Of a stretch of 64,000 nt of DNA, positions 47,955-63,789 are shown piece after piece (the stretch's first letter is position 1; each line of letters begins with the position of its first letter). Source of the DNA: Streptomyces uncialis (lineage in GTDB: Bacteria; Actinomycetota; Actinomycetes; Streptomycetales; Streptomycetaceae); the NCBI RefSeq assembly GCF_036250755.1, contig NZ_CP109583.1, positions 1,302,001 through 1,366,000 of the forward strand, in the 5' to 3' direction. The translations under genes and the position numbers were made by a program. A model generated the notes under the pieces. That model was not told the origin of the DNA. It did not search any database and saw only the letters and a program-made list of their open reading frames with translations.

Positions 47955-49201
47955 GCGTGACGGTCGTCCTCACGGTGCCGGGCCCGCCGCCCGCGGAGTA
48001 CGTGTACGGGGAGCCGTTCAGCGTGGTGGTGGGCCGCGCCGCGGAGTGCGGCATCCGGATCGGGGCGGGGCACCGCGGTGTGTCGCGGCGGCACTGCCGG
48101 ATCGAGAACGCGCCCCCGCCGCTGCGGATCTCGGACCTGGGGAGCAGCTTCGGTACGGAGGTGAACGGCGTACGGCTGGACCGGCTCACCGAGCGGCCCC
48201 TGGTGGACGGCGACGAGATCCGGGTGGGCGATGTCGTGCTGCGGGTGGGGGTGCGCGCGGCCCCGGCCGCCGCGCCGCCCGCCGCGCCGGAGCACGGCGA
48301 CGCGCTGCCCGCGGCGCCGCCGGGGTATGAGCTGCTGCGGGAGCTGGGGCGCGGGGCGCAGGGGGTGGTGTATCTGGCCCGGGACCGGTCGAGCGGGGCG
48401 CTGGTGGCCCTGAAGCGGGTGCTGGCGTCGGGGGAGGTCGACGGTGCGGCGCGGTTCGCGTTCCGCCGTGAGTTCGGGAGTCTGCGGGCGCTGCGGCATC
48501 CGAACATCGTGGCGTTCCGGGGTGGTCACGACCGGGGCAGCGCGTTCTGGTTCGCGTGCGAGTACTGTCCCGGCGGCAGTCTGGTGGATCTGCTCGGCGG
48601 ACGGGGCGGGCGGCCCCTGTCGGCGGCGCGGGCCGTGCCGCTGACCCTGGGCATGCTCGCCGGACTGCACCACGCGCACCGGGCGGAGGTCCCGGCGCCC
48701 CGGCAGGCCGACGGTGCGGTGGTGACGGCCCGGGGGCTGGTGCACCGGGACGTGAAACCGGCCAATGTGCTGCTCGTGGGTGAAGCGGGCGGCCCCGGAC
48801 CGGTGGTGAAGCTCGCGGACTTCGGGCTGGCGAAGGCGTTCGAGCACGCCGGGCTGTCCGGTCACACCCGGTCGGGGGCGCTCGGCGGCACGCTGCCGTT
48901 CACGGCCCGCGCGCAGCTCGTCGACTACAAGTACGCGGGCCCCGAGGTCGATGTGTGGGCGACGGCCGCGTGTCTGTACTGGCTGCTGACCGGGACGACG
49001 CCCCGCGACTATCCGCCGGACCGTGATCCGGTGGCGGTGAGCCTGCGGGCTCCGGTGGTGCCGGTACGGGAGCGGGACCGGTCGGTGCCGCCGGGGCTCG
49101 CGGAGGTCCTGGACGAGGCGCTGGTGGACACGCCCGCGATCCGGGTCACCACGGCGGCGGGCCTGGCGCGGGCGCTGGTTGCGGCCACGCCGGGGCGGTG
49201 A
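47951..49201 (+). CDS. FHA-domain Ser/Thr protein kinase
   Basis: The 416-residue protein has an N-terminal FHA domain (about residues 20-100; Gly28-Arg29, SRRH at 45-48, Asn72-Gly73) that binds phosphothreonine, then a Hanks-type kinase (about 125-410): GRGAQGVV, Lys155 in ALKRV, HRDVKPANVLL at 265-275, DFG at 290-292. It lacks a membrane helix. It is translationally coupled (ATGA) to the WD40 kinase, so one kinase may phosphorylate the other and the FHA domain may read that mark. FHA domains fused directly to the N-terminus of a kinase are less common than separate FHA proteins. Confidence 0.9.
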   Translation: MSVTVVLTVPGPPPAEYVYGEPFSVVVGRAAECGIRIGAGHRGVSRRHCRIENAPPPLRISDLGSSFGTEVNGVRLDRLTERPLVDGDEIRVGDVVLRVGVRAAPAAAPPAAPEHGDALPAAPPGYELLRELGRGAQGVVYLARDRSSGALVALKRVLASGEVDGAARFAFRREFGSLRALRHPNIVAFRGGHDRGSAFWFACEYCPGGSLVDLLGGRGGRPLSAARAVPLTLGMLAGLHHAHRAEVPAPRQADGAVVTARGLVHRDVKPANVLLVGEAGGPGPVVKLADFGLAKAFEHAGLSGHTRSGALGGTLPFTARAQLVDYKYAGPEVDVWATAACLYWLLTGTTPRDYPPDRDPVAVSLRAPVVPVRERDRSVPPGLAEVLDEALVDTPAIRVTTAAGLARALVAATPGR

Positions 49202-49328: not shown

Positions 49329-50027
49329 TCAGTCCGCGAGGGCGACGTACAGCGGGGTGCCGAGCAGGACCGTCCGGTCGCCGTGCAGTTCGGGGTAGGG
49401 GCTGGGGCCGCTGAGGAGGCGCTTGGCGAGAAACTCGACGTGCTGGGCGGGGCCGCGCAGCGTGGAGTTGGCCTGGGCGACGGTGGCCAGCGCGTCGGTG
49501 TCGGCGGCGGCGAGGGCGTCCTGGGGGCCGGGGGCGGCGGGGCGCAGGACGAAGTCGTCGTCGGCCGGGGTCGCGATGCGGTGCAGGAGCACCGGGAGCA
49601 GGGAGGCGCTGAGCCGGTCCGGGGCGGGTGGCGGCGGGGCGCCCGCGTCGGCGGCGGCCCGGGTGGCGGCGCCGAGGACATGGGCGCTGGCGCCGCCGAG
49701 GCCGAGGATCGTGCGGCGGGTGCGGCCGCCGAAGTACACCGTGTCGTCGTCGCCGACAAGTCCCCACTGCATCGGCAGCAGGCCCCCGAAGTACTGGCCG
49801 GGTTCGTCCACATCGCCGATGTCGCCGTGGTCCTGGAGGAAGCGGACCACCCGTTCGAGGCGGGCGACGCGGTCGGCGGAGGCGGACTCGACGCTGCGTC
49901 TGGCGGTGACGACCTTGAGGTCCAGGCCCACCTCGGAGGTCCGCTTGCGGGCCCAGCCCGGGTCGGTCTGCGAGAGCAGCATGTCGACCTTGGCGTCGCT
50001 GATGTAGAGGTAGTAGCGGAACGACAC
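49329..50027 (-). CDS. Hypothetical protein resembling the SAVMC3_10250/DUF7019 family
   Basis: The 232-residue soluble protein begins MSFRYYLYISDAKVDMLLSQ and contains YFGGLLPMQWGLVGDDDTVYFGG and a C-terminal HVEFLAKRLLSG...TVLLGTPLYVALAD. These phrases recall a streptomycete family annotated as SAVMC3_10250 or DUF7019, whose function is unknown; the assignment is from memory and needs a profile search. It converges on the FHA kinase gene with a 127-base spacer. No catalytic motif is apparent. Families of this type are sometimes found beside kinases or conflict-system genes, so a link to the two kinases is possible but not shown. Confidence 0.55.
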   Translation of the reverse strand: MSFRYYLYISDAKVDMLLSQTDPGWARKRTSEVGLDLKVVTARRSVESASADRVARLERVVRFLQDHGDIGDVDEPGQYFGGLLPMQWGLVGDDDTVYFGGRTRRTILGLGGASAHVLGAATRAAADAGAPPPPAPDRLSASLLPVLLHRIATPADDDFVLRPAAPGPQDALAAADTDALATVAQANSTLRGPAQHVEFLAKRLLSGPSPYPELHGDRTVLLGTPLYVALAD

Positions 50028-50194: not shown

Positions 50195-50674
50195 TCAGCG
50201 GGCGGGTGCTCCGTGGGCGAGGGGTTCGCGGACGGGGGTTCCGTGGGCGAGGGGTTCGCGGGCGAGTGCTCCGTCGGCGACGGGTTCGCGGGCGGGCTCG
50301 GGCGGGCCGGAACCGTCGTATCCGCGGACCGCGTCGAGGTACTCGGCGATGGCGTCCCGGTTGCGGATCAGACAGGTGACGCGCTCCGTCATCCGGTCCC
50401 GCTCGTGCTCCAGGGTGGCGATCATCTCCGCGGTGGCGTCGGGGAAATAGATAGTGCGGGGCTTGTCGAGGCAGGGCAGGATCTGTTTGATGATCCGGGT
50501 GGGCAGTCCCGCGTCGAGCAGACCGCGGATCTGGAGGATCCGGTCCACGAAACGTTCGTCGTACTTGCGGTAGCCGTTCGGGGTGCGCTGGGACACGATG
50601 AGCCCCTGCTCCTCGTAGTAGCGCAGCAGACGGCGGGGGGTGCCGGTGCGCTCCGACAGCTCTCCGATACGCAT
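50195..50674 (-). CDS. MerR-family transcriptional regulator
   Basis: The 159-residue regulator has an N-terminal MerR winged helix (MRIGELSERTGTPRRLLRYYEEQGLIVSQRTPNGYRKYDE), then a coiled-coil dimer helix (about residues 75-118). The last 30 residues form three ten-residue units of the type REPLAHGTPV, an extension with no role in the fold. There is no metal-binding cysteine cluster, so an organic ligand is more likely than a metal. ATG 50674 has GAGG nine bases upstream. It is divergent from an MFS transporter gene with a MerR-type promoter between them, so control of that transporter is likely. Confidence 0.88.
   Translation of the reverse strand: MRIGELSERTGTPRRLLRYYEEQGLIVSQRTPNGYRKYDERFVDRILQIRGLLDAGLPTRIIKQILPCLDKPRTIYFPDATAEMIATLEHERDRMTERVTCLIRNRDAIAEYLDAVRGYDGSGPPEPAREPVADGALAREPLAHGTPVREPLAHGAPAR
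50198..50290 (-). repeat. 30-bp in-frame repeats at the 3' end of the merR gene
   Basis: Three imperfect 30-bp units encode REPLAHGTPV-type decapeptides at the C-terminus. The unit length matches the repeat tail of the siderophore ATPase, though the sequence differs. Confidence 0.7.
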
Positions 50675-50699: not shown

Positions 50700-50725
50700 T
50701 TGACCTTCACATATGTGTGAGGGTT
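50700..50725 (+). promoter_or_regulatory. MerR-type promoter-operator of the MFS gene
   Basis: TTGACC (50700-50705) is followed by a palindrome TCACA-TATG-TGTGA (50707-50720), extended by ACC/GGT flanks to 50703-50724. The palindrome fills the spacer where a MerR protein would bind. The -10 is weak, with a TTGAGC or GAGCAT candidate after a 19- to 21-base spacer. Confidence 0.65.
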
Positions 50726-50739
50726 TGAGCATACCCATC

Positions 50740-51960
50740 ATGTCGATCCGCGATACAGAGATCCCAGTTGACACCCCGTCACCTGCCAAGGACAAGAAAC
50801 TCCCCCTGGCGGCGCTGCTCGCGCTGGCCACCGCCGTCTTCATCACCAGCCTCACCGAGACCCTGCCCGCCGGCGTACTGCCCTCCATGAGCGGCGACCT
50901 GGGCGTCAGCGAGTCCGCGATGGGCCAGTCGGTGACGATCTACGCGATCGGCACCGCGCTCACCGCCATCCCGCTCACCGCCGCCACCGCCGCCTGGCAC
51001 CGCAAGCGGCTGCTGCTCACCGCGATGGCCGGGTTCGCCGTCGCCAACACCGTGACGGCCGTGTCGTCCGACTACCCGGTCACCATGGTCGCCCGCTTCC
51101 TCGCGGGGGTCGCCGCGGGCCTCGCCTGGGCCCTGCTCGCCGGATACGCCCGCCGGATGGCGCCCGTCCACCTCCAGGGCAAGGCCATCGCCATCGCCAT
51201 GGCCGGTATCCCCGTCGCCCTGTCGCTGGGCGTGCCCGCCGGGACCTTCATCGGCGGCGCCCTCGGCTGGCGGGTCGCCTTCCTCATCATGACCGGGCTC
51301 ACCGTCGTCCTCCTCGGCTGGATCGTCGCCGTGGTCCCCGAGTACCCCGGCCAGCGCGCCGGGAGCCGGACGCCCATGCTGCGCGCGCTGCGGGTGCCGG
51401 GGGTCGCCCCGGTGCTGTTCGTGACCCTGGTCTTCGTCCTCGCGCACACGATCCTCTACACGTACATCGCCACATTCCTCGACCGGCTCGGGATGGAGGA
51501 CTCCACCGATGTGGTGCTGCTCGTCTTCGGCGGCGCGTCGCTGCTCAGTATCTGGATCGTCGCGACGCAGATCCACCGGCGGCTGCGCGGACTCACCGTC
51601 GCCAGCACCCTGCTCGTCGCCGTCGCCGCGACCCTGCTCGCGCTGCTCTCGGACAGCACCGCGCTGGTGTACGTCGCGGTGACGCTGTGGGGGCTGGGCT
51701 GGGGCGGTATCCCCACCCTGCTCCAGACCGCGGTGGGCGACGCGGGCGGCGAACAGGCGGACTCGGCGCAGGCCATGCTCGTCACGCTGTGGAACGTGGC
51801 GATGGCCGCGGGCGGCGTCGCGGGCGGTGTCCTGCTCGACCGGGTCGGTTCCGAATCCTTCCCCTGGAGCGTGCTGCTCCTGATGCTGCCGGTGCTCGCG
51901 GTGGTGGTGGCCGCGCGGGTGCACGGCTTCCCGGCGAAGCGCCCCGGCGCGACCGTCTGA
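50740..51960 (+). CDS. MFS transporter, DHA1-type drug efflux protein
   Basis: The 406-residue membrane protein has twelve predicted helices. The early part is typical of DHA1 efflux pumps (FITSLTETLPAGVLPSMSGDLGVSESAMGQSVTIYAIGTALTAIPLTA, about residues 30-75), with a motif-A-like HRKRLLLTAM loop and LAGVAAGLAWALLAGYARRM. It probably exports a small drug-like compound by proton antiport. It is divergent from a MerR regulator and sits next to the LysW operon, so it could export that operon's product or give self-resistance. Two strong hairpins separate the two units, so this is only a positional hint. Confidence 0.88.
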   Translation: MSIRDTEIPVDTPSPAKDKKLPLAALLALATAVFITSLTETLPAGVLPSMSGDLGVSESAMGQSVTIYAIGTALTAIPLTAATAAWHRKRLLLTAMAGFAVANTVTAVSSDYPVTMVARFLAGVAAGLAWALLAGYARRMAPVHLQGKAIAIAMAGIPVALSLGVPAGTFIGGALGWRVAFLIMTGLTVVLLGWIVAVVPEYPGQRAGSRTPMLRALRVPGVAPVLFVTLVFVLAHTILYTYIATFLDRLGMEDSTDVVLLVFGGASLLSIWIVATQIHRRLRGLTVASTLLVAVAATLLALLSDSTALVYVAVTLWGLGWGGIPTLLQTAVGDAGGEQADSAQAMLVTLWNVAMAAGGVAGGVLLDRVGSESFPWSVLLLMLPVLAVVVAARVHGFPAKRPGATV

Positions 51961-52185: not shown

Positions 52186-53082
52186 TCAGGGGGTCGCGGG
52201 CGGGGTCCCGTACGCGATGGGGTTGCTGAGGACCACGCCGTGGCTCTTGACGTCGATGGTCACCCGGTCGCCGTCCGCGATACGGAATCCGTCGTGGAAG
52301 CTGGCCTGGTCGGCGCCGAGCAGGACGTAGTTGACCAGTCCGGGTCGCCGTACCGCGGGGAAGGTGAACAGATGGTCCACCATGTCGCGCACCGGGTGGT
52401 ACAGGGCGTCCGCGCCGCAGTCGAAGTTCCCCTCCCACGCGACCGCGCCGTCGCGTTCGATGGTGACCCGGCCGGTCACCGTCGCGGGCGGCTCCCCGAG
52501 GAACAGCCACGGGGACACCGCGGTGTCGCAGAGCTTGCAGTACGGGTTGTAGCCGGGGTCCTGACGGTGCAGCCCGATGTCGCAGAGGTCGTTGCCGAAG
52601 GTGTACCCGGCGTAACGCGGCTCGCCCCGGGCGTCGTTGACGTACACCAGGAGCACCTCGGGCTCCTCGATCAGCGCGACCGGCTCGGCCGGGACGGTGA
52701 GCGTCTCGTCCGGCAGCCGCAGCCAGGAACCGAAGCCCTTGAAGAACCACTTGGGCGGCACGAACGGCGCCCCCGCCGGGGCGCTCTCCCCGCCGAACTT
52801 GGACTTGTGGGTGCCCATGAACCCGCTGAGCAGGGCGTCGCCGGACACCGTGGGCAGCAGCGGCGGCAGCGGGCGCAGTTGCGGGTCCCCGGGTTCGACG
52901 GTGACGGCCCCGCCGGCCGCGCGGATGTCCGCGACGGCCCGCGCGAGGTCACCGCCACCGGCGACGGCCTCCCGCAACTGCCCCTCCCCCACCGGGTACA
53001 GGGTCAGCGGCTCACCGGGGCCGGGACGTTCGAAAGCCGCGTGGCGGCGGCCCTGGTACTCGCTCTCGAAGACGACGGACAT
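52186..53082 (-). CDS. Fumarylacetoacetate hydrolase (FAH)-fold protein
   Basis: The 298-residue protein has FAH-family features in its second half: EEPEVLLVYVNDARGE (about residues 139-154, acidic metal ligands Glu140 and Glu142), YAGYTFGNDLCDIGLH, YCKLCDTAVSPWLFLGE and a C-terminal DHLFTFPAVRRPGLVNYVLLGADQASFHDGFRIADGDRVTIDV. FAH-fold enzymes hydrolyse C-C bonds in beta-diketo acids, decarboxylate or hydrate 2-oxo acids, or isomerise. As the last gene of the LysW operon it may tailor a 2-oxo acid intermediate. Reaction and substrate cannot be specified. Confidence 0.75.
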   Translation of the reverse strand: MSVVFESEYQGRRHAAFERPGPGEPLTLYPVGEGQLREAVAGGGDLARAVADIRAAGGAVTVEPGDPQLRPLPPLLPTVSGDALLSGFMGTHKSKFGGESAPAGAPFVPPKWFFKGFGSWLRLPDETLTVPAEPVALIEEPEVLLVYVNDARGEPRYAGYTFGNDLCDIGLHRQDPGYNPYCKLCDTAVSPWLFLGEPPATVTGRVTIERDGAVAWEGNFDCGADALYHPVRDMVDHLFTFPAVRRPGLVNYVLLGADQASFHDGFRIADGDRVTIDVKSHGVVLSNPIAYGTPPATP

Positions 53083-53214: not shown

Positions 53215-53322
53215 CTTCAACGGGGCGGAGCGGTTCAGCCGGGCGGGGCGCTTCAACGGGGCGGAGCGGTTCAGCCGGGCGGAGCGCTTCAGCCGGGCGG
53301 AGCGGTTCAGCCGGGCGGGGCG
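53215..53322 (+). repeat. Six-copy 18-bp tandem repeat running into the aminotransferase stop
   Basis: Six adjacent 18-bp units alternate (C/G)TTCAGCCGGGCGGAGCG and (C/G)TTCAACGGGGCGGAGCG. The last unit contains the stop codon and final codons of the aminotransferase gene, so the array probably began at the gene end and grew outward into the 224-base spacer 53083-53306. Confidence 0.88.
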
Positions 53323-54584
53323 GTCACCTGGGTGAGGACCTCCTCGATCCGGTCCAGCGAGGCGCGTACCCAGGGCAGTCGGAGCGGATCGGACACCGTG
53401 AGCGCGCGCTCCCGCCGTTCGGCCGTGTCACCGTAGAGACGGCTGGTCGCGACCCTGATCCGCAGGCTCCCGGCGGGTTCCCCGAAGGCGCTGCCCGGCA
53501 GGACCCCCACCCCGTACCGGTCGAGCAGCAGCCGGGTCAGGGCGTCACCGTCGCCCACCCCGTGGCGGCGCTCCAGCCGCTCCCGCAGCGGGGCGAAGTC
53601 CGGGTACAGGTAGCAGGTCGCCCGGATCGGGGTGAGTTCGGCGCCGGTGGCGGCGAACCGGGCGGCGACCGCGCGGACGACCACCTCGTGCAGGGCCCGG
53701 GAGCCGGCGATCCGGGCGGTCACCTGGGGCGGCTCGTCGAAGGCGTACGCTGCCGCCGCCTGGACAGGGGCCGGGGGGCTGGACCAGATCTGGCTGGCGA
53801 CGGAGACCAGCCGGGTGGTCAGCTCCCGTCCGGCCGGGCTGTCGGGGAGCCGGGCGACCCCCGTGCGCCAGCCGCCGAGCGCGAGGCTCTTGGTGAGGCC
53901 GGTGGTGACCACGGTGCGCTCGGGGGCGAGGACCGCCGGGGACACGGCGGGGCGCGCCGCGTCGTACACCAGGTCGCCGTAGATCTCGTCGGAGACGACG
54001 ATCAGGTCGAGGTCCCGGACCGCCGCGGCGAACCGGCGCAGGGTGTCCGGTCCGGCGACGGTCCCGGTCGGGTTGTCGGGGACCGTGACGACCACGGCCC
54101 TCGGGTCGTGTCCGGCGGCGCGGGCCAGGGTGACGGCCTCCCGCAGCCGGTCGGGGTCGGGCACACCGCCCTCGCCCGGCGCGGTCGGCACGGTGATCGG
54201 GCGCACCCCGGCGAGCCGCGCGTGGGCCGCGTAGCTGACCCAGCCGGGTACGGGGATGACGACGTCCCCGCCGATGGCCAGGAGCAGCGCGTAGAGCAGG
54301 GACTTGCTGCCGGGACCGGCGACCACCAGGTCAGGATCGGTGGCCCGGCCCCGGCGGCCCCAGTACCCGGCCGCGGCGTTGCGCAGGGCGGTGGAACCGG
54401 CGACGGGTCCGTAGGCGCCGAGGTCCGCGGCGGCGGCGAGCCGCTCGCGCAGCGCGGGCAGGACGGGCAGGCCGATCTCCCCGCTGGTGAGGGGGAGGAC
54501 CTGTTCCCCGGCCTGTTGTCGGCGGGCCAGCAGCGCGTCGGCCGCGAGGGTCGCCGACATGGTCACCGGTGGGGGCTCGGGCAT
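53307..54584 (-). CDS. Class I/II (fold-type I) PLP aminotransferase
   Basis: The 425-residue enzyme is an aspartate-aminotransferase-like PLP enzyme: Asn171 in VPDNPTG, Asp199 and Tyr202 in VVSDEIYGDLVYD, PLP Lys232 in TTGLTKSLALGGWRTG with Arg240, and the C-terminal substrate Arg in LRIRVATS. It would move an amino group between an amino acid and a keto acid. In lysine and arginine pathways through LysW a class III aminotransferase (LysJ) follows LysY; here the only aminotransferase is of class I/II. ATG 54584 has GGAG seven bases upstream. It follows the AMP-forming ligase gene by about 200 bases. Confidence 0.87.
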   Translation of the reverse strand: MPEPPPVTMSATLAADALLARRQQAGEQVLPLTSGEIGLPVLPALRERLAAAADLGAYGPVAGSTALRNAAAGYWGRRGRATDPDLVVAGPGSKSLLYALLLAIGGDVVIPVPGWVSYAAHARLAGVRPITVPTAPGEGGVPDPDRLREAVTLARAAGHDPRAVVVTVPDNPTGTVAGPDTLRRFAAAVRDLDLIVVSDEIYGDLVYDAARPAVSPAVLAPERTVVTTGLTKSLALGGWRTGVARLPDSPAGRELTTRLVSVASQIWSSPPAPVQAAAAYAFDEPPQVTARIAGSRALHEVVVRAVAARFAATGAELTPIRATCYLYPDFAPLRERLERRHGVGDGDALTRLLLDRYGVGVLPGSAFGEPAGSLRIRVATSRLYGDTAERRERALTVSDPLRLPWVRASLDRIEEVLTQVTAPPG

Positions 54585-54780: not shown

Positions 54781-56433
54781 TCATGCCCCGGTCCAGCGGG
54801 CGCGCAGTTCGGCCTTGCGGACCTTGCCGGTGAGGGTCTTGGGCAGGGCGGTCACCACCTCCAGCCGCTCGGGGAGGAACCGCCGGTCCAGTCCGGCGCG
54901 TTCGACGTGGGCGCGCAGTTCGTCCAGTGCGGGGTGGCCGGTGCCGCTGGGGACGACCACGGCGCACAGGGTGTCCCCGCCGGGGCCGGGCAGACCGACC
55001 AGCGCGGCCTCGGTGACGGTGGGGTGGCCGCCGATGACGGCTTCCAGTTCGGTCATGGGGGCGACGGTGCCGTCGCGGACGACGGCGTCCCGGGCGCGGC
55101 CGACGATCCGGATGCCGCCGTCCCCGTCGGCGCGGGCCAGGTCCCCGGTGTCGAACCAGCCGTCGGCGCCGAACTCGGCCGCGTAGACGTCGTCGCGTTT
55201 GTGGTAGCCGAGGGCGAGCGAGGCGCCCCGCACCCGCAGCCGGCCCACCCCGTCCAGGGTGCCGTCCGGCCCGGCGGGGTCGATGCGGACCTCCATCGCG
55301 TCGATGGGGCCGCCGTTGCTGTGGGCGGCCCAGTCCTCGGGCTGGCCGGGCCGGGTGATGGTGACGGGGCCGTTCTCGGACATGCCCCACAGCGAGTGGG
55401 CGCGGGCTCCGAGGGTGTCGCGGATGTCGGCCGCGAGGTCCGCGAGGACGGGCGCCGATCCGATGACGGCGTGCCGCAGGGTGCTGGTGTCGCGGGGATC
55501 GGCGCGCTGCGAGGCGGTGACATCGGCGAGGGTGGCGGGCGGGCCGTACAGAAGGGTGGCCCCGTACCGTTCGACGAGGTCGAGGAGGGCTTCGTTGCGC
55601 CGGACGTCCTGGAAGGCGACGGTGCCGCCCAGCAGGACGCCCGCGAGGATGCCCTGGGCGAAGCCGGAGTAGTGGCACAGGGGGGTGGAGACGGCGGCCA
55701 CCAGTCCGGGTCCGAGTCCGAAGGTGTCGACGTAGCCGCGGATGGCGGAGTGGACGGTGTTCTGGCTGTGCAGCACGCCCTTGGACTCACCGGTGGTGCC
55801 CGAGGTGAAGAGCACCACGAACGGGTCGTCGGGGCCGAGTTCCCGGCCTTCGGGGACCGCCCCGGTGCGGCCCACCCGGTCGGGGTCGGGGTCGACGAAG
55901 TGGTCGTGGAAGTCGCGGGCGCCGTCCGGTACGGGGCCCCCGACCACGAACACCTTCTCCAGGGTGGCGAGTTCCCCGCTCAGCGCGGTGACGGTCGACG
56001 CGAGCGGTGATCCCGCCCAGCCGGGGATCGTGACACAGACGCGGGCCTCGGTGAGGGCGAGGCGGTGGCGCAGTTCGTCCTCGGGGCAGACCGGCGAGAT
56101 GGGGCAGATCACCGCGCCGACGCGGGCACAGGCGAAGATCAGCGGCACCATCTCCCAGCGGTTGGGGAGCTGGACGGCGACGAAGTCGCCGCGCCGGACA
56201 CCGAGTCCGGCGAGGGCGCGTGCGAAGCGTTCGGTGAGCTGGAGGAGTTCGGCGTAGTCGAGGGTGTCGGTGCGGGCCTCGGCGACCCGGCGGCCCGCGA
56301 TGGCGAGATGGTGCGGCCGGTGGCGGGCCTGGCGGCGGAGGTCGTCCAGGAAGGTCTCGTCCCGCCACCAGCCCCGGCGCCGGTACTCGTCGGCGCGTAC
56401 CCGCCGTGGATCGACGGGCGCGGGGGCGCTCAC
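54781..56433 (-). CDS. AMP-forming acyl/aryl-CoA ligase-like enzyme
   Basis: The 550-residue ANL-superfamily protein has the P-loop LFTSGTTGESKG (about residues 208-219), the GMSENG core motif, YxxGDL-type WFDTGDLARADGDGGIRIVGRARD near residue 425 and the catalytic C-terminal Lys in LPKTLTGKVRK (Lys537). It would adenylate a carboxylic acid and pass it to CoA, a carrier or an amine. The GTG 56433 start overlaps the end of the Glu/Leu dehydrogenase-like gene, so it is in the LysW operon. Whether it acts on the LysW product or on an acyl side chain is unknown. Confidence 0.86.
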   Translation of the reverse strand: MSAPAPVDPRRVRADEYRRRGWWRDETFLDDLRRQARHRPHHLAIAGRRVAEARTDTLDYAELLQLTERFARALAGLGVRRGDFVAVQLPNRWEMVPLIFACARVGAVICPISPVCPEDELRHRLALTEARVCVTIPGWAGSPLASTVTALSGELATLEKVFVVGGPVPDGARDFHDHFVDPDPDRVGRTGAVPEGRELGPDDPFVVLFTSGTTGESKGVLHSQNTVHSAIRGYVDTFGLGPGLVAAVSTPLCHYSGFAQGILAGVLLGGTVAFQDVRRNEALLDLVERYGATLLYGPPATLADVTASQRADPRDTSTLRHAVIGSAPVLADLAADIRDTLGARAHSLWGMSENGPVTITRPGQPEDWAAHSNGGPIDAMEVRIDPAGPDGTLDGVGRLRVRGASLALGYHKRDDVYAAEFGADGWFDTGDLARADGDGGIRIVGRARDAVVRDGTVAPMTELEAVIGGHPTVTEAALVGLPGPGGDTLCAVVVPSGTGHPALDELRAHVERAGLDRRFLPERLEVVTALPKTLTGKVRKAELRARWTGA

Positions 56434-57566
56434 CGGCGCTCCGCGCGGCGCGCGGCGAGCAGTTCGGGCAGCGGGTCGCCGACGCTGGCGGCGGCGATCT
56501 CCAGCAGGGCGCGGGTGTTGTCGCGGACCCGGGTGGCCACCCAGTCGAAGACCCAGTCCTTGCGGGGTCCGGCGGCGAGCTCGAAGGGCACGGTCCGGGT
56601 GAGGGCGAGTCCGGCGGCGGCGGCTCCGCCGACATTGGCGACGACATCGGGGACCAGGGTGGCACCGGAGGCGATGATCTTCTGCTTGGCCTCGGCGCTG
56701 GAGGTGAGGTTGCCGCCCTCCACGATCAGCGGGGGGCGCAGCCGGTGGACGTTGGCGGCGTTGACGGCGTCCTTCTGCGCGGCGAGGACGAGCAGGTCGG
56801 CGTCGACCCCCAGCCAGGCCTCGCGCTCCGGGTCGACGGTGACGCCCTGCGGCAGCCGGGTGCGGTCGATCCGGCCGAGGTCGTCGGTGATGGCGACGAG
56901 GTCGTCCACGGGCAGCCGGTCGGCGGTGATGGTGCCGTCGATGTCGGCGACGGCGACGACGCGGTGGCCGCGTTCCTCCAGGAAGCGGGCGACGGCGCGG
57001 CCGACCGCGCCGAAGCCCTGGACGACGACCCGGGCGGCCTTGTCGCGGTGGGCGGCTTCCAGGGCGGTGACGGCGGCGACCCCGACGCCGTGTCCGGTGC
57101 AGTCGATCAGTGGTTCGTAGTAGGTGCGCCAGTCGTACGGCATGTCCACGGCGCGGGCCTTGCGGCGCGGGTCGTAGCCCGCCTCGGCGAAGAAGGTGGC
57201 GCGGTCGGCGGGGGTGACCCCGAGGTCGATGCCGAGATGGATGCCGCCGTGCAGCAGCGGGGCGACGGTACGGCCGAAGGTGCGAAAGGTCTCCTCGCGG
57301 TCGCGGCCGTCGGAGACGATGCCCGCTTTGGCGCCGCCGACGCGCAGACCCACGAGGGTGAGCTTCTCGGTCATCCCCCGGGCGAGACCGGCGACCTCGT
57401 CCTCGGTGACGGCGGCGGTCATCCGGGTGCCGCCCATGGCGAGCGAGTCGACCAGGGAGTCGACGACGACCCAGCCCTTCAGGGGGCCGCCGCTGCCGTT
57501 GAGCTTCACCGAGAAGGCGGGTTCCTGGGTGTCGGTGGTACGGAGGCGGGCGTGCGGAGCGGTCAT
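56430..57566 (-). CDS. Glu/Leu/Phe/Val dehydrogenase-family protein
   Basis: The 378-residue protein has the ELFV dehydrogenase signature: MTEKLTLVGLRVGGAKAGI with Lys68 and Lys80, catalytic Asp114 in GIDLGVT, and a Rossmann domain with VVQGFGAVGRAVARFLEERG (about residues 180-199). It would catalyse NAD(P)-dependent reductive amination of a 2-oxo acid, or the reverse. ATG 57566 is chosen because GAGGT precedes it; the frame continues upstream without features. In this operon it may aminate the 2-oxo acid made by the synthase-like first gene, or supply glutamate for loading. Confidence 0.85.
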   Translation of the reverse strand: MTAPHARLRTTDTQEPAFSVKLNGSGGPLKGWVVVDSLVDSLAMGGTRMTAAVTEDEVAGLARGMTEKLTLVGLRVGGAKAGIVSDGRDREETFRTFGRTVAPLLHGGIHLGIDLGVTPADRATFFAEAGYDPRRKARAVDMPYDWRTYYEPLIDCTGHGVGVAAVTALEAAHRDKAARVVVQGFGAVGRAVARFLEERGHRVVAVADIDGTITADRLPVDDLVAITDDLGRIDRTRLPQGVTVDPEREAWLGVDADLLVLAAQKDAVNAANVHRLRPPLIVEGGNLTSSAEAKQKIIASGATLVPDVVANVGGAAAAGLALTRTVPFELAAGPRKDWVFDWVATRVRDNTRALLEIAAASVGDPLPELLAARRAERR

Positions 57567-57709
57567 GTCCGGGACCTCACTTCGGTGTCGTTGCGATGGG
57601 GTGCGGTGTGTCGCGTGGGGTGCGGTGGAGTGCCGCCGGACCGGCGCGGGCGGGAGCGCGGCCGGTGGGACGGGAGCGGGGCCGAGGCGGACCCGGCGGT
57701 CGGACCGGT

Positions 57710-58273
57710 TCACTTCCACAGGTCGGTGAACCCGCGGAGGATCTCCTTGCCGTCCCGGCGGAATTCGAGGTGGGCCTGCGAGCCGTGGATACGGCCGTCG
57801 TCGGAGCGCAGGAACTCGACGGGGGCGTGCTCGGAGCGTCCGATGGAGCGGAAGCCCGGGGGCGCCTGCCGCAGATAGAGGGTGTGGCGGTGGAACACCG
57901 TGACGGTCGGTCCGACATGGGCGAACAGGGCTTCGCCCGGGTCGACACGGGCCTGGTGGCCGCCGACCCGCTGGGGTCCCTCCGCGAGACCGCCGCCCGC
58001 GGCGACACCGATGATCTGCATACCGCCGCAGATCCCGAACACGGGGACGTCGGTGGTCATCACCAGATCGATCAGCGGCCGGTAGTGGTCGCTGTCGTAG
58101 GCGCGGACCTTGGTGCCGCTCAGCACGATCGCCTGGTAGCGGTCGCCGGCCTTCGCGGGGACGTGGGCGGCCTCGACGGTGTCGGTGGCCGAGCCGAGTT
58201 CCGCGAAGCGGTCACGGAGCTGTTTCAGGGACAGGGTCCCGTTGTTCACGACCAGGACCCGGGAGGTCGCCAT
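57710..58273 (-). CDS. Class I glutamine amidotransferase (stand-alone GATase1 domain)
   Basis: The 187-residue protein is a complete GATase1 domain with triad Cys82 (FGICGGMQ), His168 and Glu170 (SQAHLEF), as in the glutaminase part of GMP synthase and anthranilate synthase. No synthase domain is attached. It sits in the LysW operon between the LysZ and Glu dehydrogenase-like genes. Usual roles are hydrolysis of free Gln to supply ammonia or removal of gamma-glutamyl groups. Because the LysW homologue ends in Gln, action on that protein-bound gamma-amide is an attractive but untested alternative. Confidence 0.82.
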   Translation of the reverse strand: MATSRVLVVNNGTLSLKQLRDRFAELGSATDTVEAAHVPAKAGDRYQAIVLSGTKVRAYDSDHYRPLIDLVMTTDVPVFGICGGMQIIGVAAGGGLAEGPQRVGGHQARVDPGEALFAHVGPTVTVFHRHTLYLRQAPPGFRSIGRSEHAPVEFLRSDDGRIHGSQAHLEFRRDGKEILRGFTDLWK

Positions 58274-58444: not shown

Positions 58445-59233
58445 TCAGCCGGGGGTGATCACCGTTCCGGTGCGTTCGGCGAGGAGTTCCGACACGGGGG
58501 CGCTGCCGATGACGACCCGGCCGACGCCCCGGTCGAGGGCCTCACCCGCGGCCCGCAGCTTCTTGCGCATCCCGCCGGTGGCGCCGTTGTCGCGGAACGC
58601 GGCGGCGGCCTCCGCGGTGATCCGGTGCACCGGCCGGCCGTCGACGAGGAGATGGGTGACGTCGGTGACCAGGGTGAGATCGGGTGCGCCGGTGGCGCCC
58701 GCGAGGGCGGCGGCGGCCCGGTCGGCGTCGGTGTTGACCTCCCGCCCGTCGGGCCCGAGGGCCAGCGGGGTGACGAGCAGACAGTGGCCGGGGGCGAGGT
58801 TCTTCAGCCGTGACGGGTCGATCCGGGCGACGGGTCCGACCAGGTTGTCGATCTCCACGAGCTGTTTGCGGTGCCACCACCAGCGTTCACCCTGGGCCGC
58901 CTCGATCAGACCGTCGCTGCCGATGACCCGTTCGGTGGTGACGCCGCGTTCGGCGAGCCGGGCGACGACGTCCCGTCCGAGAGCCGCGCTGACGGTCTTG
59001 ATGTCCTCGATCACCTGCGGGGTGGTCCAGCGGCTCTGGTTGCCGAACCGGTCGCGCAGCACCGCGGACGGCTCGCTGTAGCGGGGGCTGAGGCGTTTGA
59101 GCGGCTTGGACCAGCCGTGCACCAGGATCAGCGGGTGCGCGCGGCCGTGCCGGGCGAGGTCGTCCCACCAGTGGGCGGACACCTCGTCCAGGACGCTGCC
59201 GCCGAGTTTGACGACGGTGGGGACCGCGCTCAC
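58445..59233 (-). CDS. lysZ-like: LysZ-like kinase (acetylglutamate kinase family)
   Basis: The 262-residue amino-acid-kinase-family protein has Lys9 in VVKLGGS and the LysZ-type RDRFGNQSRWTTPQVIEDIKTVSAALGRDVVARL segment rather than the ArgB equivalent, so it is predicted to phosphorylate the side-chain carboxylate of an amino acid carried on LysW. The second glycine loop, normally HGGG or HGGS, reads HGWS at 39-42, a non-standard change near the phosphoryl-transfer site. The GTG 59233 start overlaps the LysY stop (GTGA). Its product would be reduced by the LysY homologue. Confidence 0.83.
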   Translation of the reverse strand: MSAVPTVVKLGGSVLDEVSAHWWDDLARHGRAHPLILVHGWSKPLKRLSPRYSEPSAVLRDRFGNQSRWTTPQVIEDIKTVSAALGRDVVARLAERGVTTERVIGSDGLIEAAQGERWWWHRKQLVEIDNLVGPVARIDPSRLKNLAPGHCLLVTPLALGPDGREVNTDADRAAAALAGATGAPDLTLVTDVTHLLVDGRPVHRITAEAAAAFRDNGATGGMRKKLRAAGEALDRGVGRVVIGSAPVSELLAERTGTVITPG

Positions 59234-60315
59234 GCGGGCATCACGGGCTGCATGGTCAGTCCTTCCTCCTCCGGCAGGCCGAAGCGGATGTTGAGGGCCT
59301 GGACGGCCTGTCCCGCGGCGCCCTTGACGAGGTTGTCCAGGGCGGCGAGGACGACGATCCGGTCGCCGTCGGGGTCGTGCTCCACCGCGATGTCGCAGTA
59401 GTTGGAGCCGAGGACCGCCTGGGGGTCAGGGACGGGGATCAGGGTCTCGGTGTGCCGGCGCACCCGGACGAAGCGGTGGCCCTTGTAGAAGCGCAGATAG
59501 GCGCGGTGCAGGGTGCGGGCGTCCGGTGTGTCGCCGTCGGTGAAGACGTAGGAGCTGGTGAGCAGTCCGCGGACATGGGAGACGCCGTACGCGGACATGG
59601 ACAGGGAGGCGATCCGGCCGGGTTCGGCGCGTTCCAGGAAGTCCCCGACCTCGGCGGCGTGCCGGTGCCCGGTGGGGGCGTACGGGGCGATGGCCCCGCT
59701 GCGGAAGGGGTGCAGATCGGGGGTGCGCAGCTGGAGGCCGCCGCCGCTGGAGCCGCTCTTGCCGTCCACGACGACGGTCCGCAGTTCGAGGCCGAGTCCG
59801 AGGACGAGCGGGGCGAGGCCCAGGGTGATGGCGGTGGCGTAGCAGCCGGGCAGCGAGATCAGGGGCGCGCCGGCGAGCCGTTCGCCGATCAGCTCCGGGA
59901 CGCCGTACACGAACCGTTCGGCGAGTTCGGGGCTGCGGGACACCTTGGGGTACCAGCGGTCGTGGAGCGCGGGGGTGCGGATACGGAAGGCGCCGCTGAG
60001 GTCGATGACACAGGGGACGCGGTCGGCGAGGCGGGCCGCGAGTTCGGCGGAGGCCGGTGCCGGGGTGGACAGGAACACCACGTCGCAGCGTTCGGCGAGC
60101 GCGTCCGGGTCGTCGGGGACCGCTTCGACGCTGACGCCGAGGTCCTGGCGCAGTCCGGGGTGGAGTTCGCTGGGGCGGCGGCCGACGCTGGAGGAGCCGC
60201 CGAGGAAGGTGAGCCGGAGCCGGGGGTGCTGGACGACGAGCCGGATCAGATCGCCGCCGGCGAGCCCGGAGGCGCCGATGATCCCCACCCGGACGGGCGG
60301 TGCGCCGCCCGTCAT
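59230..60315 (-). CDS. lysY-like: LysY-like N-acetyl-gamma-glutamyl-phosphate/LysW-aminoadipyl-phosphate reductase
   Basis: The 361-residue protein has a Rossmann domain (VGIIGASGLAGGDLIRL, residues 10-25), the catalytic Cys158 in SLPGCYATA and the substrate segment GKSGSSGGG, as in ArgC and LysY. It would reduce the acyl phosphate on the LysW-bound amino acid to a semialdehyde with NADPH. The ATG 60315 overlaps the LysX stop (ATGA), placing it tightly in the carrier pathway. ArgC of general arginine synthesis is the alternative, but the LysX/LysW/LysZ neighbours argue against it. Confidence 0.87.
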   Translation of the reverse strand: MTGGAPPVRVGIIGASGLAGGDLIRLVVQHPRLRLTFLGGSSSVGRRPSELHPGLRQDLGVSVEAVPDDPDALAERCDVVFLSTPAPASAELAARLADRVPCVIDLSGAFRIRTPALHDRWYPKVSRSPELAERFVYGVPELIGERLAGAPLISLPGCYATAITLGLAPLVLGLGLELRTVVVDGKSGSSGGGLQLRTPDLHPFRSGAIAPYAPTGHRHAAEVGDFLERAEPGRIASLSMSAYGVSHVRGLLTSSYVFTDGDTPDARTLHRAYLRFYKGHRFVRVRRHTETLIPVPDPQAVLGSNYCDIAVEHDPDGDRIVVLAALDNLVKGAAGQAVQALNIRFGLPEEEGLTMQPVMPA

Positions 60316-61160
60316 CCGAGGATCTCCCGGACATGGCGGCCGATCGCGGCGGGGATGTCGGCCCCGGTGGCGGAGGCGACCGCGCGGAAGCCGGGGGCGT
60401 GGTTGACCTCGTTGACGAGGTGGCCGTCGGGCGTCTCGAAGAGGTCGACACCGTAGATCCCGGCGCCCAGCAGGTCGACCACCCGGCCGACGATGTCCCG
60501 GACCTCGTGGTCGAGGGCCACCGCCTCGTTGCGGTTGCCGAGTGCGGCGTTGTTGCGCCAGTCGGTCCCGCCGCTCTCGAAGCGGGCCGCGGCGACGAGT
60601 TCCTCGCCCACCACCAGGCAGCGCACCGAGCTCCCGCCGAGGTAGGGCTCCACGAGGCACGCCTGCTCGAAGGCGTGGCCGAGGTCCTCGACGTAGTCGT
60701 AGACGGAGTGGGCGGTGTCCCGGGTGCGCAGCAGGGTGACGCGTTTGCCCATCCCGCCGAAGACGGGCTTGAGGACGACGGGCAGGGGGAGTTCGTCGAG
60801 TGCCTTCTCGAAGTCCTTGCGGGAGACGACGAGCCGGAAGTCGGGCACCGGTATCCCGGCGGTGCGCAGCAGGGCGCGCAGCACGAGTTTGTTCTCGCAG
60901 CTCTGGATCGCGTGGGTGGTGTTGAGGGTGGGGATGCCGGACGCCTGTGCGGCGGCGGCGAGCAGTCCGCCGCGGGTGTAGCTGCGGCTGCGGATGAGGA
61001 GGGTGTCGTACGCGGTGATCGACGGTGCGTCCGGGTGCCCGAGGCACAGGGACTCGTCGTTCACCCAGTCGATGTGCAGGCCGAGGTCCGGCGCGGTCCG
61101 GATGAGCTGGCGTTCCTCCCAGCCGATCCGGTCCGCGACGATGGCCACTTTGCCGCCCAT
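60312..61160 (-). CDS. lysX-like: LysX-like ATP-grasp ligase loading the LysW carrier
   Basis: The 282-residue RimK-type ATP-grasp enzyme has Lys131 in LPVVLKP, the flexible loop GGMGKRV (135-141), FESGGTDWRNNAALG and the Mg-binding Glu251/Asn253 in VNEVNHAPGF. LysX enzymes join the alpha-amino group of glutamate or aminoadipate to the gamma-carboxylate of the last Glu of LysW. In this window the carrier ends in Gln, so the ligase would need an unmasked Glu or another attachment site. The gene follows lysW by 29 bases. Confidence 0.87.
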   Translation of the reverse strand: MGGKVAIVADRIGWEERQLIRTAPDLGLHIDWVNDESLCLGHPDAPSITAYDTLLIRSRSYTRGGLLAAAAQASGIPTLNTTHAIQSCENKLVLRALLRTAGIPVPDFRLVVSRKDFEKALDELPLPVVLKPVFGGMGKRVTLLRTRDTAHSVYDYVEDLGHAFEQACLVEPYLGGSSVRCLVVGEELVAAARFESGGTDWRNNAALGNRNEAVALDHEVRDIVGRVVDLLGAGIYGVDLFETPDGHLVNEVNHAPGFRAVASATGADIPAAIGRHVREILG

Positions 61161-61189: not shown

Positions 61190-61369
61190 CTACTGGCCCC
61201 AGTCGCGGAGCTGGACCTCGATCATCTGGAGCGAGAGGGTGCCGTCCTGGATGCCGTCGACCCGCAGGGTGAGCAGGCATTCGGGGCACGACAGGGTTTC
61301 GCCCTCGATCAGCGGAGGTGTCGTCAGATCGGTCTCGCACTCGGGGCAGGCACCGGTGAGCGTGGGCAT
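61190..61369 (-). CDS. lysW-like: LysW-like amino-group carrier protein with C-terminal Gln
   Basis: A short gene encodes 59 residues: start MPTLTGACPEC, a second zinc knuckle at SCPEC and the end VQLRDWGQ. Cysteines 8, 11, 28 and 31 form the zinc site of the LysW fold. The family's C-terminal tail is EDWGE, and the last Glu carries the substrate; here it reads RDWGQ, the last codon being CAG just before TAG at 61190-61192. A GAG-to-CAG change would be enough to cause this. GGAG lies about seven bases before ATG 61369. The position between the synthase-like gene and LysX, with LysY and LysZ downstream, supports a carrier role in a specialised pathway, as in the vazabitide-type AmCP systems. 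Confidence 0.85.
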   Translation of the reverse strand: MPTLTGACPECETDLTTPPLIEGETLSCPECLLTLRVDGIQDGTLSLQMIEVQLRDWGQ

Positions 61370-61528
61370 GGGTGTCTCCTGGCAGGGGTGGCGACTCCGG
61401 CCCCGGGCGGGGGTCGGAGCGGGGGTACGTAGGGGTACGAAGGGCGCTGAGGGTTCGGCGGGTACGTGGGGGTACGGGGGGCGCGGCGGGTACGTGGGGG
61501 TACCGGGGCCGGGGCCGGGTGGTGGGGG
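61370..61528 (+). repeat. GGGTACGTGGGGGTAC-type repeats between synthase-like gene and lysW
   Basis: The 159-base spacer contains three to four imperfect copies of a GGGTACGTGGGGGTAC unit at about 61422-61505. It also holds the lysW ribosome binding site. I see no gene here. Confidence 0.65.
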
Positions 61529-62692
61529 TCAGGTGCCGGGGAACTCGACGGCGGCCTTGCGGATGGCGTCGCGGTCCAGCAGCGGGGCGCCGCGCTCGGT
61601 CTGCCGGCGCACCAGCCACTCGGTGAAGCCGGGGACGTCGATGTCGGTGCCGGAGTCGGCGAGCGCCCAGGTCACCAGCGGCGGGGTGAGGCGGGAACGG
61701 ACCCGCAGTTCACGGGAGTTGCCGACGGTCTCGGCGGGCAGGGTCTCGTACGCCTCGGGGTGGGTGAGCTGGCCGGGCAGTTCGTAGGCGAAGGCGTGCG
61801 AGGTGGTGGGTCCGGGCTGGAAGGCGGTGCCGAGCCCGGAGCCCTTCAGGGCGAGGGCGGACAGCTCGGTGAGATGCGACAGGTCGAAGCGGGTGTCGCC
61901 GTGGATCACCCGCAGGGAGGTGAGCAGTTCGGCGAGGGGCGCGTTGCCGCCGCGTTCCCCGATGCCGCCGACGGTCGCGGAGATCCAGCGGGCACCCGCG
62001 CGGTAGGCGGCCAGCGAGTTGGCGACGGCCATACCGAGCATGTTGTGGGAGTGGATCTCGATCTCGGCGCCGTCGATCGCGGTGAGGTCGCCGATCACCC
62101 GTTCCATCTGCCAGGGCGACAGACAGGCCACGGTCTCCGCGAGCCGGAACCGGTCGGCCCCGGCGGCGAACCCGGCGGTGACGTAGGGGACGAGCCGTTC
62201 CCGTGGGGTGCGGGCGCCGTCCTCGCCGCTGAAGGTGACATGGAAGCCGCGTTCCTTGGCCTGCTCGATGGCGGCGCGGGCGACGGCGATGAGGTACTTG
62301 GTGCTGCTGGAGCCGAGTTTCAGCGCGGCGTGCTGCTCCGAGGTGGGGATGGAGAACATCACCGACCGCACCCCGAGGCGCAGGGCCTCGTCCAGGGCGC
62401 GCGCGCTCTGGCGCCGGTCGCGGACCACAACCAGGCTGAGGCTGCGTTCGGGGCCGACCGCGTCATGGGTGGCGTCGATGAGGGGGGCGTCCTTGGACGC
62501 CGGTCCGGAGATCATGCCGACCTCGACCAGTTCGACCCCGGACCGCACCAGGAGCCCGGCGATCCGGCCGGCGTCCGCCGGGCCGAATTCCACCCCCGCC
62601 ATATGGGCGGAGTCACGCAGGGTGGCGTCGGAGATACGAGGGAGTGGGCGTGCTCCGTTCGGAGGGCCGGCGTCCTTTTCTGTCACTGCCAT
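61529..62692 (-). CDS. Homocitrate/isopropylmalate synthase-like enzyme (DRE-TIM family)
   Basis: The 387-residue protein is a DRE-TIM metallolyase-type condensing enzyme or lyase: DATLRDSAHMAGVEF (Arg26, Asp27), FSGEDGARTP, the metal ligands His214 and His216 with Asn217 in IEIHSHNMLGMAVANSLAAYRAGA, and GGIGERGGNAPLAEL. Relatives condense acetyl-CoA with a 2-oxo acid (homocitrate, isopropylmalate, citramalate synthases) or cleave such products. ATG 62692 has AAGGAG nine bases upstream; MKESN at 62710 contains that site and is not used. As the first gene of the LysW operon it could make a chain-extended acid. No aconitase-like or decarboxylating dehydrogenase gene follows in the window. Confidence 0.83.
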   Translation of the reverse strand: MAVTEKDAGPPNGARPLPRISDATLRDSAHMAGVEFGPADAGRIAGLLVRSGVELVEVGMISGPASKDAPLIDATHDAVGPERSLSLVVVRDRRQSARALDEALRLGVRSVMFSIPTSEQHAALKLGSSSTKYLIAVARAAIEQAKERGFHVTFSGEDGARTPRERLVPYVTAGFAAGADRFRLAETVACLSPWQMERVIGDLTAIDGAEIEIHSHNMLGMAVANSLAAYRAGARWISATVGGIGERGGNAPLAELLTSLRVIHGDTRFDLSHLTELSALALKGSGLGTAFQPGPTTSHAFAYELPGQLTHPEAYETLPAETVGNSRELRVRSRLTPPLVTWALADSGTDIDVPGFTEWLVRRQTERGAPLLDRDAIRKAAVEFPGT

Positions 62693-63042
62693 GGCGTTCG
62701 ACTCCTTCATCGCGCCGCTTGTGGGGGCGGCGTCCTCGAAACAGCGCCAGGAATATGCCGCGGACCCGGAAGGGTCCGGTCGGAATGGGGAGGGCGATCG
62801 CGGCCGGAGGGGGGAGCCGCGATCACCGGTGTCCAGCCTCCGGGGGGCGGGTACGCGCCGTCAAGATTTCGCGCCTCAGACGATTGTCAGGGATTGTCAC
62901 GGGAGTTCAGGTCAGGAAAGGAAAGGACGGGCCGGGGCAGAAGTCGGGTAATTGACTTCGCCGGACGGCGGTGGCCGGAGAATTCCCGGCTATGGTGGCC
63001 GCGTTCCGTTCGGCGTGGGTACGGCAGAAGGGTGGTCATCGC
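62693..63042. other. Divergent control region of the LysW operon
   Basis: This 350-base spacer separates the synthase-like gene from the racemase-family gene and must contain both promoters. A direct repeat (62882-62899) and a TTGACT box (62952-62957) are the only signals I can point to. Confidence 0.5.
62882..62899 (+). promoter_or_regulatory. Direct GATTGTCA repeat with 10-bp period
   Basis: GATTGTCA occurs at 62882-62889 and 62892-62899, exactly one helical turn apart, about 190 bases upstream of the operon start. Such spacing suits binding of a regulator to one face of the DNA. Confidence 0.45.
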
Positions 63043-63789
63043 ATGGATCTGTTCTCCCTCCCTCGGCTCGGGGTGGTCGTCCCACCCGAGAACCCCACGG
63101 CCGAGCCGGAGTTCCACCGGCTCGTGGGCGGGGCGCTGAACGTCTACACCTCCCGCTTCCCGGTGCTGCCGGGGCTGGGCCTGCGGGACATGCTGGAGCG
63201 GTACAACGCCGTGCTGGCGGACACCCTCGCGGGCTTCGGCGGGATGCGGCTGGACGCGGCGGTGGTCGCGTGCAGCGCGTCGCACTATCTGCTCGCGCCC
63301 GCGGGCGACCGCGCGTTCTGCGAGCGGCTGAGCGAGCGGGCCGGGTTCCCGGTGCGTTCCTCGACGCAGGCGATCCTCGCGGCGTGCGAGGCGTTCGGGG
63401 CGGACGGGCTGACGCTGGTGTCGCCGTACGAGCCGTGGCTGACGGACACCTCGCGGGACTTCTGGCGGCGGGCGGGACTGCGGGTCGACGAGGTGGTGCT
63501 CGTCCCGGCGGGCGACCGCTTCGACCCGTACGCGGTGACCCGCGCCGAGATACTGGACCGGCTGTACGGCCGGCCGCTGCCGGGGGACGGCGCGCTGCTG
63601 TTCACCGGTACGGGGATGGCCACGCTGGCGGCGCTGGAGACCCTGGCGCGGGACACGGACCGGCTGCTGCTCACGTCCAATCTGGCGTCGGCGTGGTGGG
63701 CGCTGCGTGAGGTGGGCGCCTGGGGTCCGGGGACCGCCGCGGCCCATCCGCTGCTGGCGCGGCTGGCCCAGGTACCGGAGGCCGCCTGA
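63043..63789 (+). CDS. Asp/Glu racemase superfamily protein (maleate isomerase/arylmalonate decarboxylase-like)
   Basis: The 248-residue protein begins RLGVVVPPENPTAEPEFHRL, the opening of maleate isomerases and arylmalonate decarboxylases. The first active-site Cys is present (Cys77 in VVACSASHY). The second, which racemases and isomerases need, is not seen at the equivalent FTGTGMATL position, where Thr is found. A single-Cys enzyme points to decarboxylation or a non-racemising reaction, although the known decarboxylase keeps the other Cys. ATG 63043 (MDLFSLP) fits the family start. It is divergent from the LysW operon and may belong to the same pathway. Confidence 0.78.
   Translation: MDLFSLPRLGVVVPPENPTAEPEFHRLVGGALNVYTSRFPVLPGLGLRDMLERYNAVLADTLAGFGGMRLDAAVVACSASHYLLAPAGDRAFCERLSERAGFPVRSSTQAILAACEAFGADGLTLVSPYEPWLTDTSRDFWRRAGLRVDEVVLVPAGDRFDPYAVTRAEILDRLYGRPLPGDGALLFTGTGMATLAALETLARDTDRLLLTSNLASAWWALREVGAWGPGTAAAHPLLARLAQVPEAA

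Follow-up and report, generated by a model that had tools for sequence, protein, structure and literature searches.

The 64,000-nucleotide stretch of Streptomyces uncialis DNA analyzed here (contig NZ_CP109583.1, positions 1,302,001 to 1,366,000 of the forward strand; hereafter the window) encodes a small LysW-like carrier protein (61190..61369, minus strand) that ends in glutamine in place of the glutamate of canonical carriers. This glutamine is conserved across relatives, so the question of how cargo is attached to such a tail is a real one. We tentatively favor the reading that the glutamine is a masked attachment residue, hydrolyzed to glutamate before loading, probably by a class-I glutamine-amidotransferase-like enzyme encoded nearby; this interpretation draws on sequence comparison and on analogy with known systems.

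The Carrier Ends in a Conserved Glutamine

As a sequence-only reading of this DNA had described, the carrier is a 59-residue protein with two CPEC knuckles and a C-terminal RDWGQ. The open reading frame ends in VQLRDWGQ, with the Gln codon CAG at 61193-61195 and the stop codon TAG directly after it at 61190-61192. The knuckles, at residues 8-11 and 28-31, are invariant in all 128 aligned rows and are predicted to bind zinc. With its two CxxC zinc knuckles within about 55-60 residues, and with LysX-, LysY-, and LysZ-like enzymes encoded alongside, the protein agrees with the LysW and amino-group carrier proteins (AmCP). It lacks the C-terminal Glu of their EDWGE tail and scores below the curated cut-offs, i.e., 19.2 bits against 27 for PF21344 and 36.7 bits against 75 for NF041070, a curated family model whose cut-off passes no Streptomyces match at all (0 of 295 genomes above it). 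In a phmmer comparison, it matched the solved LysW 3wwl over residues 5-59 with an E value of 0.0029. No mention of a Gln-ended LysW was found among the literature listings (some of them capped) and passages searched, outside which key AmCP papers lie, and an earlier description is possible.

A misreading of GAG as CAG, which the sequence-only reading had named as grounds for dismissal, was ruled out because a near-identical second assembly and more than 100 homologues agree with the window. Strain DCA2648 of S. uncialis carries the near-identical locus (L079), with a LysW of 98% identity that likewise ends CAG TAG. A first homologue search gave 82 proteins among the matches listed, of which 81 end in RDWGQ and one in RDWGE. 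Pooling these with a profile search (120 of 266 matches listed) gave 127 homologues, among which the last residue is Gln in 122, Glu in five, and never anything else; these tails also rule out a single-strain oddity. The same reading had proposed aligning homologues to look for RDWGQ, and with the window carrier included as the 128th row, LRDWG is invariant and the final column reads Q in 123 rows and E in five. It had also held Glu-ended homologues within the cluster family to be fatal to its claim. Such homologues do occur, yet this was too strict a view, given that they are rare beside more than 100 Gln forms.

A scan of contigs from named genomes yielded 73 loci, in which the tail is encoded as Gln in 71 (all CAG) and Glu in two (GAG). 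Gln-tailed loci occur in genera including Streptomyces, Kitasatospora, Kutzneria, Lentzea, Saccharothrix, Amycolatopsis, Nocardia, Kribbella, Actinoplanes, Nocardiopsis, Streptomonospora, Glycomyces, and Brevibacterium. A phylum-wide census with the Gln-type profile, scoring at most 16 candidates per genome, matched one of 396 genomes, namely that of the window itself; the contig scan and the scan of 295 Streptomyces genomes are relied on in its place. Five Streptomyces clusters hold a second LysW-like gene that adjoins the aminotransferase gene in the opposite orientation to the main row, with both copies ending in RDWGQ (L023, with G016: L002, L007; L024/L056; L035/L037; L045/L055; L050/L054). 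The carrier gene was also found on nine plasmid records, six from Streptomyces and three from Rhodococcus, with the whole row viewed in two (L008 and L009); this occurrence suggests that the cluster may move horizontally.

Canonical carriers behave as the sequence-only reading had stated. As a control, a search was started from a canonical Streptomyces carrier; it matched 529 proteins, and 120 of 120 among the matches listed end in DWGE. Across 295 Streptomyces genomes, the LysW profile found 63 places, and the 56 with a readable tail (seven were unreadable) divide into 42 EDWGE in 38 genomes and 14 RDWGQ in 13 genomes.

The LysX-Like Ligase Differs From Canonical Partners

The presumed loading enzyme is a RimK/LysX-like ATP-grasp ligase encoded at 60312..61160 on the minus strand (PF08443 RimK and PF22626 LysX_preATP_grasp, both above cut-off). 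The GSWGR motif of LysX is reported to recognize the EDWGE tail (PMC10433800). The window ligase has GGMGK at this place and hence lacks the GSWGR typical of LysW/AmCP partners. Its altered motif is shared by the cluster type: all 30 canonical ligases read GSWGR, whereas all 74 cluster-type ligases, window included, read GG[ML]G[KR]. A second motif differs in the same manner, being EF in 30 of 30 canonical rows and [GA][FW] in 74 of 74 cluster-type rows. Rows with identical cores were merged ahead of these counts, and no carrier tail was read next to one of the 30 canonical rows (L158). Since GG[ML]G[KR] stands beside Gln tails (71 ligases) and Glu tails (three ligases) alike, the aligned sequences indicate that the change in the ligase goes with the type of cluster and not with the last residue of the carrier. 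A LysX-like gene is present in 73 of 77 loci; the four without it (L037, L045, L054, and L056) are second-carrier ends whose respective partner loci (L035, L055, L050, and L024) carry the gene.

RimK acts on the alpha-carboxylate of the terminal residue of ribosomal protein S6. Cargo might similarly be attached elsewhere than on the side chain, with the alpha-carboxylate of the last residue as the likeliest site, and a Glu side chain would then not be required. The membership of the ligase in the RimK family and the departure of both its tail-reading and its second motif from the canonical form in all 74 rows are consistent with this, and its NHAPGF stretch resembles the NxSPGL stretch of RimK. 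We nonetheless consider attachment at this site unlikely. The ligase lies nearer to the solved LysX-type protein 3vpd, its best solved match (E value 2.9e-35), than to the S6 ligase (4.6e-20). Moreover, other end residues would be expected for a side chain that did not matter, and the 127 homologues show none.

An Amidotransferase-Like Enzyme Accompanies the Carrier

The candidate tail amidase is a class-I glutamine-amidotransferase-like enzyme encoded at 57710..58273 on the minus strand (PF00117, 69 bits; PF07722, 37.9 bits; both above cut-off). Its gene follows that of the ArgB-like kinase in 76 of 77 loci, and a catalytic-type triad of Cys82, His168, and Glu170 is present in all 77 aligned rows. 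The structure prediction, with a mean predicted local distance difference test (pLDDT) score of 91.8, shows the fold of the glutamine amidotransferase (GATase) part of GMP synthetase; together with the triad, this gives the enzyme the features of a class-I glutamine amidotransferase. The predicted structure backs the fold, with which both an amidase role and an ammonia-supplying role would be compatible. The enzyme has its fold and Cys-His-Glu triad in common with gamma-glutamyl peptidase 1, peptidase C26, and the GATase subunit of GMP synthetase; its own chain carries no synthetase domain.

The enzyme tracks the Gln-tailed carrier among Streptomyces. At E values up to 1e-20, it was found in 13 of the 295 genomes, the very same 13 that encode an RDWGQ carrier, and it lies 2.7-2.9 kb from the carrier gene. 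None of the 37 genomes with EDWGE carriers only has it, an absence that assumes the carrier and amidotransferase scans drew the same 295 genomes (the genome handles agree where listed).

Class-I amidotransferases work via a gamma-glutamyl-cysteine intermediate. Conceivably, the enzyme could react with the Gln tail itself to give a gamma-glutamyl thioester and pass this straight to the substrate amine, so that the first loading would need neither a free Glu nor ATP. The triad would allow such an exchange, and a gamma-glutamyl peptidase 1 structure with a gamma-glutamyl intermediate was among the structure matches listed. This route is very unlikely, however, as the LysX-like ATP-grasp ligase is kept in 73 loci, with the other four having a partner locus that carries it, and as the route would be closed to Glu-tailed relatives.

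A further possibility is that the Gln is deamidated spontaneously or by an enzyme encoded elsewhere, such as Dop, with the cluster enzyme serving only as a source of ammonia for the product. The genome does encode a true Pup as a separate gene (G000:C1:7480365-7480571; L091) that ends in GGQ, and so presumably also an enzyme that deamidates a small protein ending in Gln. The closest fold matches of the cluster enzyme, which are ammonia suppliers, would also suit this arrangement. Dop recognizes Pup-specific features, which argues against its acting on the carrier, and we regard deamidation from outside the cluster as improbable.

Glutamate-Tailed Relatives Retain the Cluster

Clusters of the same type with RDWGE carriers occur in Rhodococcus (L009 and L080) and Actinopolyspora alba (L075/P0124); the other Glu-ended homologues are P0066, P0113, P0122, and P0128. 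Mapped on a tree built from 85 rows of joined LysX, ArgC, and ArgB sequences, the tail requires three changes, which we read, from these sequences, as the split between canonical and cluster-type carriers plus two reversions from Gln to Glu. The tree was built with a quick method, long branches (L081 and Rhodococcus) meet in it, it leaves out the four second-carrier ends that have no LysX match in their stretch, and the change counts by themselves give no direction. A tree of the 59-residue carrier alone has too few columns to help, with six changes of which the starred branches force only one.

We also looked for a switch in the partner enzymes that would follow the tail. A column-by-column scan of nine cluster proteins found 31 columns that split the three Glu-tailed loci from the rest, scattered and mostly at variable positions; three lie in LysX and one in ArgC, none of them striking. 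Two of the three Glu-tailed loci are near-copies from Rhodococcus. Such a switch was rejected, the more notable columns being positions 105 and 135 of the amidotransferase and 141 and 147 of ArgB. On balance, the alignments suggest that the exchange of Gln for Glu came with no evident rebuilding of the partner enzymes, which fits a path on which both tails end up as Glu.

Proposed Path and Its Weighing

We infer a path that runs from deamidation, through attachment at the freed side chain, to release. The carrier would be made in a masked form, and its terminal Gln would first be hydrolyzed to Glu. An intermediate of the pathway would next be coupled by the RimK/LysX-like ligase, through its amino group, to the gamma-carboxylate thus freed. 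While bound to the carrier, it would be acted on by the ArgB-like kinase and the ArgC-like reductase, and an amidase would then release it, leaving a Glu-ended carrier for more rounds. The likeliest candidate for this amidase is the adjacent class-I amidotransferase-like enzyme, which would both unmask the tail and free the product, as Dop does for Pup. The sequence-only reading had offered a masked amide, amide exchange, and another attachment site without ranking them. We favor the masked amide over the other two because only Gln and Glu occur at the end of the tails read and because the Glu forms exist without a clear compensating change in partner proteins.

Several observations weigh against this interpretation. 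The benefit of the mask is unexplained. The nearest solved relatives of the amidotransferase-like enzyme are ammonia-supplying GMP synthetase subunits, not isopeptidases. The enzyme, triad included, is retained in the Glu-tailed clusters L009, L075, and L080; deamidation cannot therefore be its sole role, and it must have another. The coincidence of enzyme and RDWGQ carrier in 13 of 13 Streptomyces genomes is not independent proof, because the presence of the enzyme is confounded with that of the whole cluster. In some partner columns, the two tail types do differ: position 105 of the amidotransferase is Gly in 70 of 74 Gln-tailed rows and Asn, Asn, and Ser in the three Glu-tailed ones, position 135 is Asp in all three Glu-tailed rows and never in the others, and ArgB has Glu at 141 and Ser at 147 in all three. 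We provisionally read these columns as chance, since two of the three Glu-tailed rows are near-copies. Finally, no M20 peptidase match was found in the cluster-type loci read (pieces of about 8 to 28 kb), which is weak evidence for a replaced release enzyme, because 27 of 33 canonical loci likewise gave no match and the four strong canonical matches are seed rows of the profile itself.

The same enzymes would allow the amide to be the working form, with the protein acting as a nitrogen carrier and not as a protecting group. The LysX-like ligase would remake the Gln with ammonia from the amidotransferase-like enzyme, and the amide nitrogen would be acylated by an acid activated by the AMP ligase, to become the nitrogen of the imide in a maleimide-type product. 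The ligase and the amidotransferase-like enzyme do stand in one row, reminiscent of the pairing of ATP-grasp and class-I GATase in carbamoyl phosphate synthetase, and the nearest folds of the latter enzyme are ammonia suppliers. The cluster-type LysX also lacks the invariant Glu of the second motif, and interconversion of Glu and Gln tails within a cycle would fit the occurrence of both. Iso-maleimycin is a cyclic imide. As the known product of a related cluster (PMC12022981), it would suit this route. On the other side, the dehydrogenase and aminotransferase of the cluster point to an amino acid as the intermediate, the usual AmCP cargo. To our knowledge, no carrier is known to be acylated on the side-chain amide of a Gln, which counts further against such nitrogen transfer, and we judge it improbable to about the same degree as deamidation from outside the cluster.

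Gene Row Around the Carrier

The carrier lies in a row of genes that is conserved in actinobacteria, with some rearrangement among relatives. The first gene of the row (61529..62710, minus strand) encodes an HMGL-like protein resembling isopropylmalate and homocitrate synthases (PF00682; nifV_homocitr E value 2e-57, below cut-off). Between it and the carrier gene, the window has three imperfect 37-base direct repeats at 61423-61524, starting GGGTACGT. The carrier and ligase genes are followed on the same strand by those for an ArgC/LysY-like semialdehyde dehydrogenase (59230..60315; TIGR01850, 324.9 bits against a cut-off of 233.6, scored on 59230-60324, with the start placed by inspection at the first ATG) and an ArgB/LysZ-like amino acid kinase (58445..59233; PF00696 above cut-off, with the best NCBIfam model, [LysW]-aminoadipate kinase, below cut-off).

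Beyond the amidotransferase-like gene, the minus strand encodes a Glu/Leu/Phe/Val (ELFV) dehydrogenase-like protein (56430..57566; PF00208 and PF02812, scanned on 56430-57668, with the start chosen by inspection), an AMP-forming acyl ligase (54781..56433; PF00501 and PF13193), a pyridoxal phosphate-dependent class I/II aminotransferase (53307..54584; PF00155), and a conserved cluster protein (52186..53082) that has no Pfam match and is labeled FAA hydrolase in the annotation of relative L008. Often found with the cluster are a major facilitator superfamily transporter (50713..51960, plus strand; PF07690) and a protein resembling arylmalonate decarboxylase and maleate isomerase (62971..63789, plus strand; PF17645, 38.6 bits, above cut-off); a MerR-type regulator (50195..50671, minus strand; PF13411) is present in part of the relatives. 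A DUF7019 protein (49329-50027) and an opposite-strand protein kinase with an FHA domain (47939-49201) have no visible link to the cluster. In the flank beyond the window (L161), seven frames were scanned with one Pfam match, of subtilase type, and no further cluster gene was identified.

Relation to Known Systems

The window carrier shares its two CxxC knuckles, DWG tail, and LysX/LysY/LysZ-like neighbors with the LysW, ArgW, and AmCP carriers of Thermus, archaea, and vazabitide-type Streptomyces clusters. It differs from them in the RDWGQ tail and in the GG[ML]G[KR] ligase, as well as in a row that holds an amidotransferase-like gene and gave no M20 match in the loci read. Like the carrier, Pup is a small protein encoded with a Gln or Glu end, and its Gln form is converted to the Glu form by an amidase which can cut the isopeptide bond as well; deamidation of the carrier would be the counterpart of this step. 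The likeness lies in the end-residue logic only, as Pup, which works with PafA and Dop, tags proteins, and Dop is glutamine-synthetase-like, unlike the class-I amidotransferase of the carrier cluster.

The closest characterized cluster is BGC23a of Streptomyces sp. QL37, which makes iso-maleimycin and which, by its published description, combines genes for an isopropylmalate synthase (IPMS), lysW, rimK, and an AMP ligase, as the window does with its IPMS-like gene (PMC12022981). Joint replacement of lysW and rimK abolished iso-maleimycin; the same paper describes a putative maleimycin cluster in S. showdoensis and names similar clusters in S. shenzhenensis, S. filamentosus, and Streptomyces sp. 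SM11 (PMC12022981). The part of it consulted makes no mention of the last residue of the carrier, which in the window is Gln. In our set, the loci of S. shenzhenensis (L012), S. filamentosus (L061), and Streptomyces sp. SM11 (L018) are all Gln-tailed, the first two having been matched by species name.

For one cluster of this type, the product is already known to be iso-maleimycin. If the Gln is unmasked before loading, carrier chemistry would have reached a Pup-like, amidase-controlled activation with a different class of enzyme, and this logic would extend through a cluster family spread over many actinobacterial genera. Should the amide itself turn out to be used, the cluster would represent a new route to build an imide.
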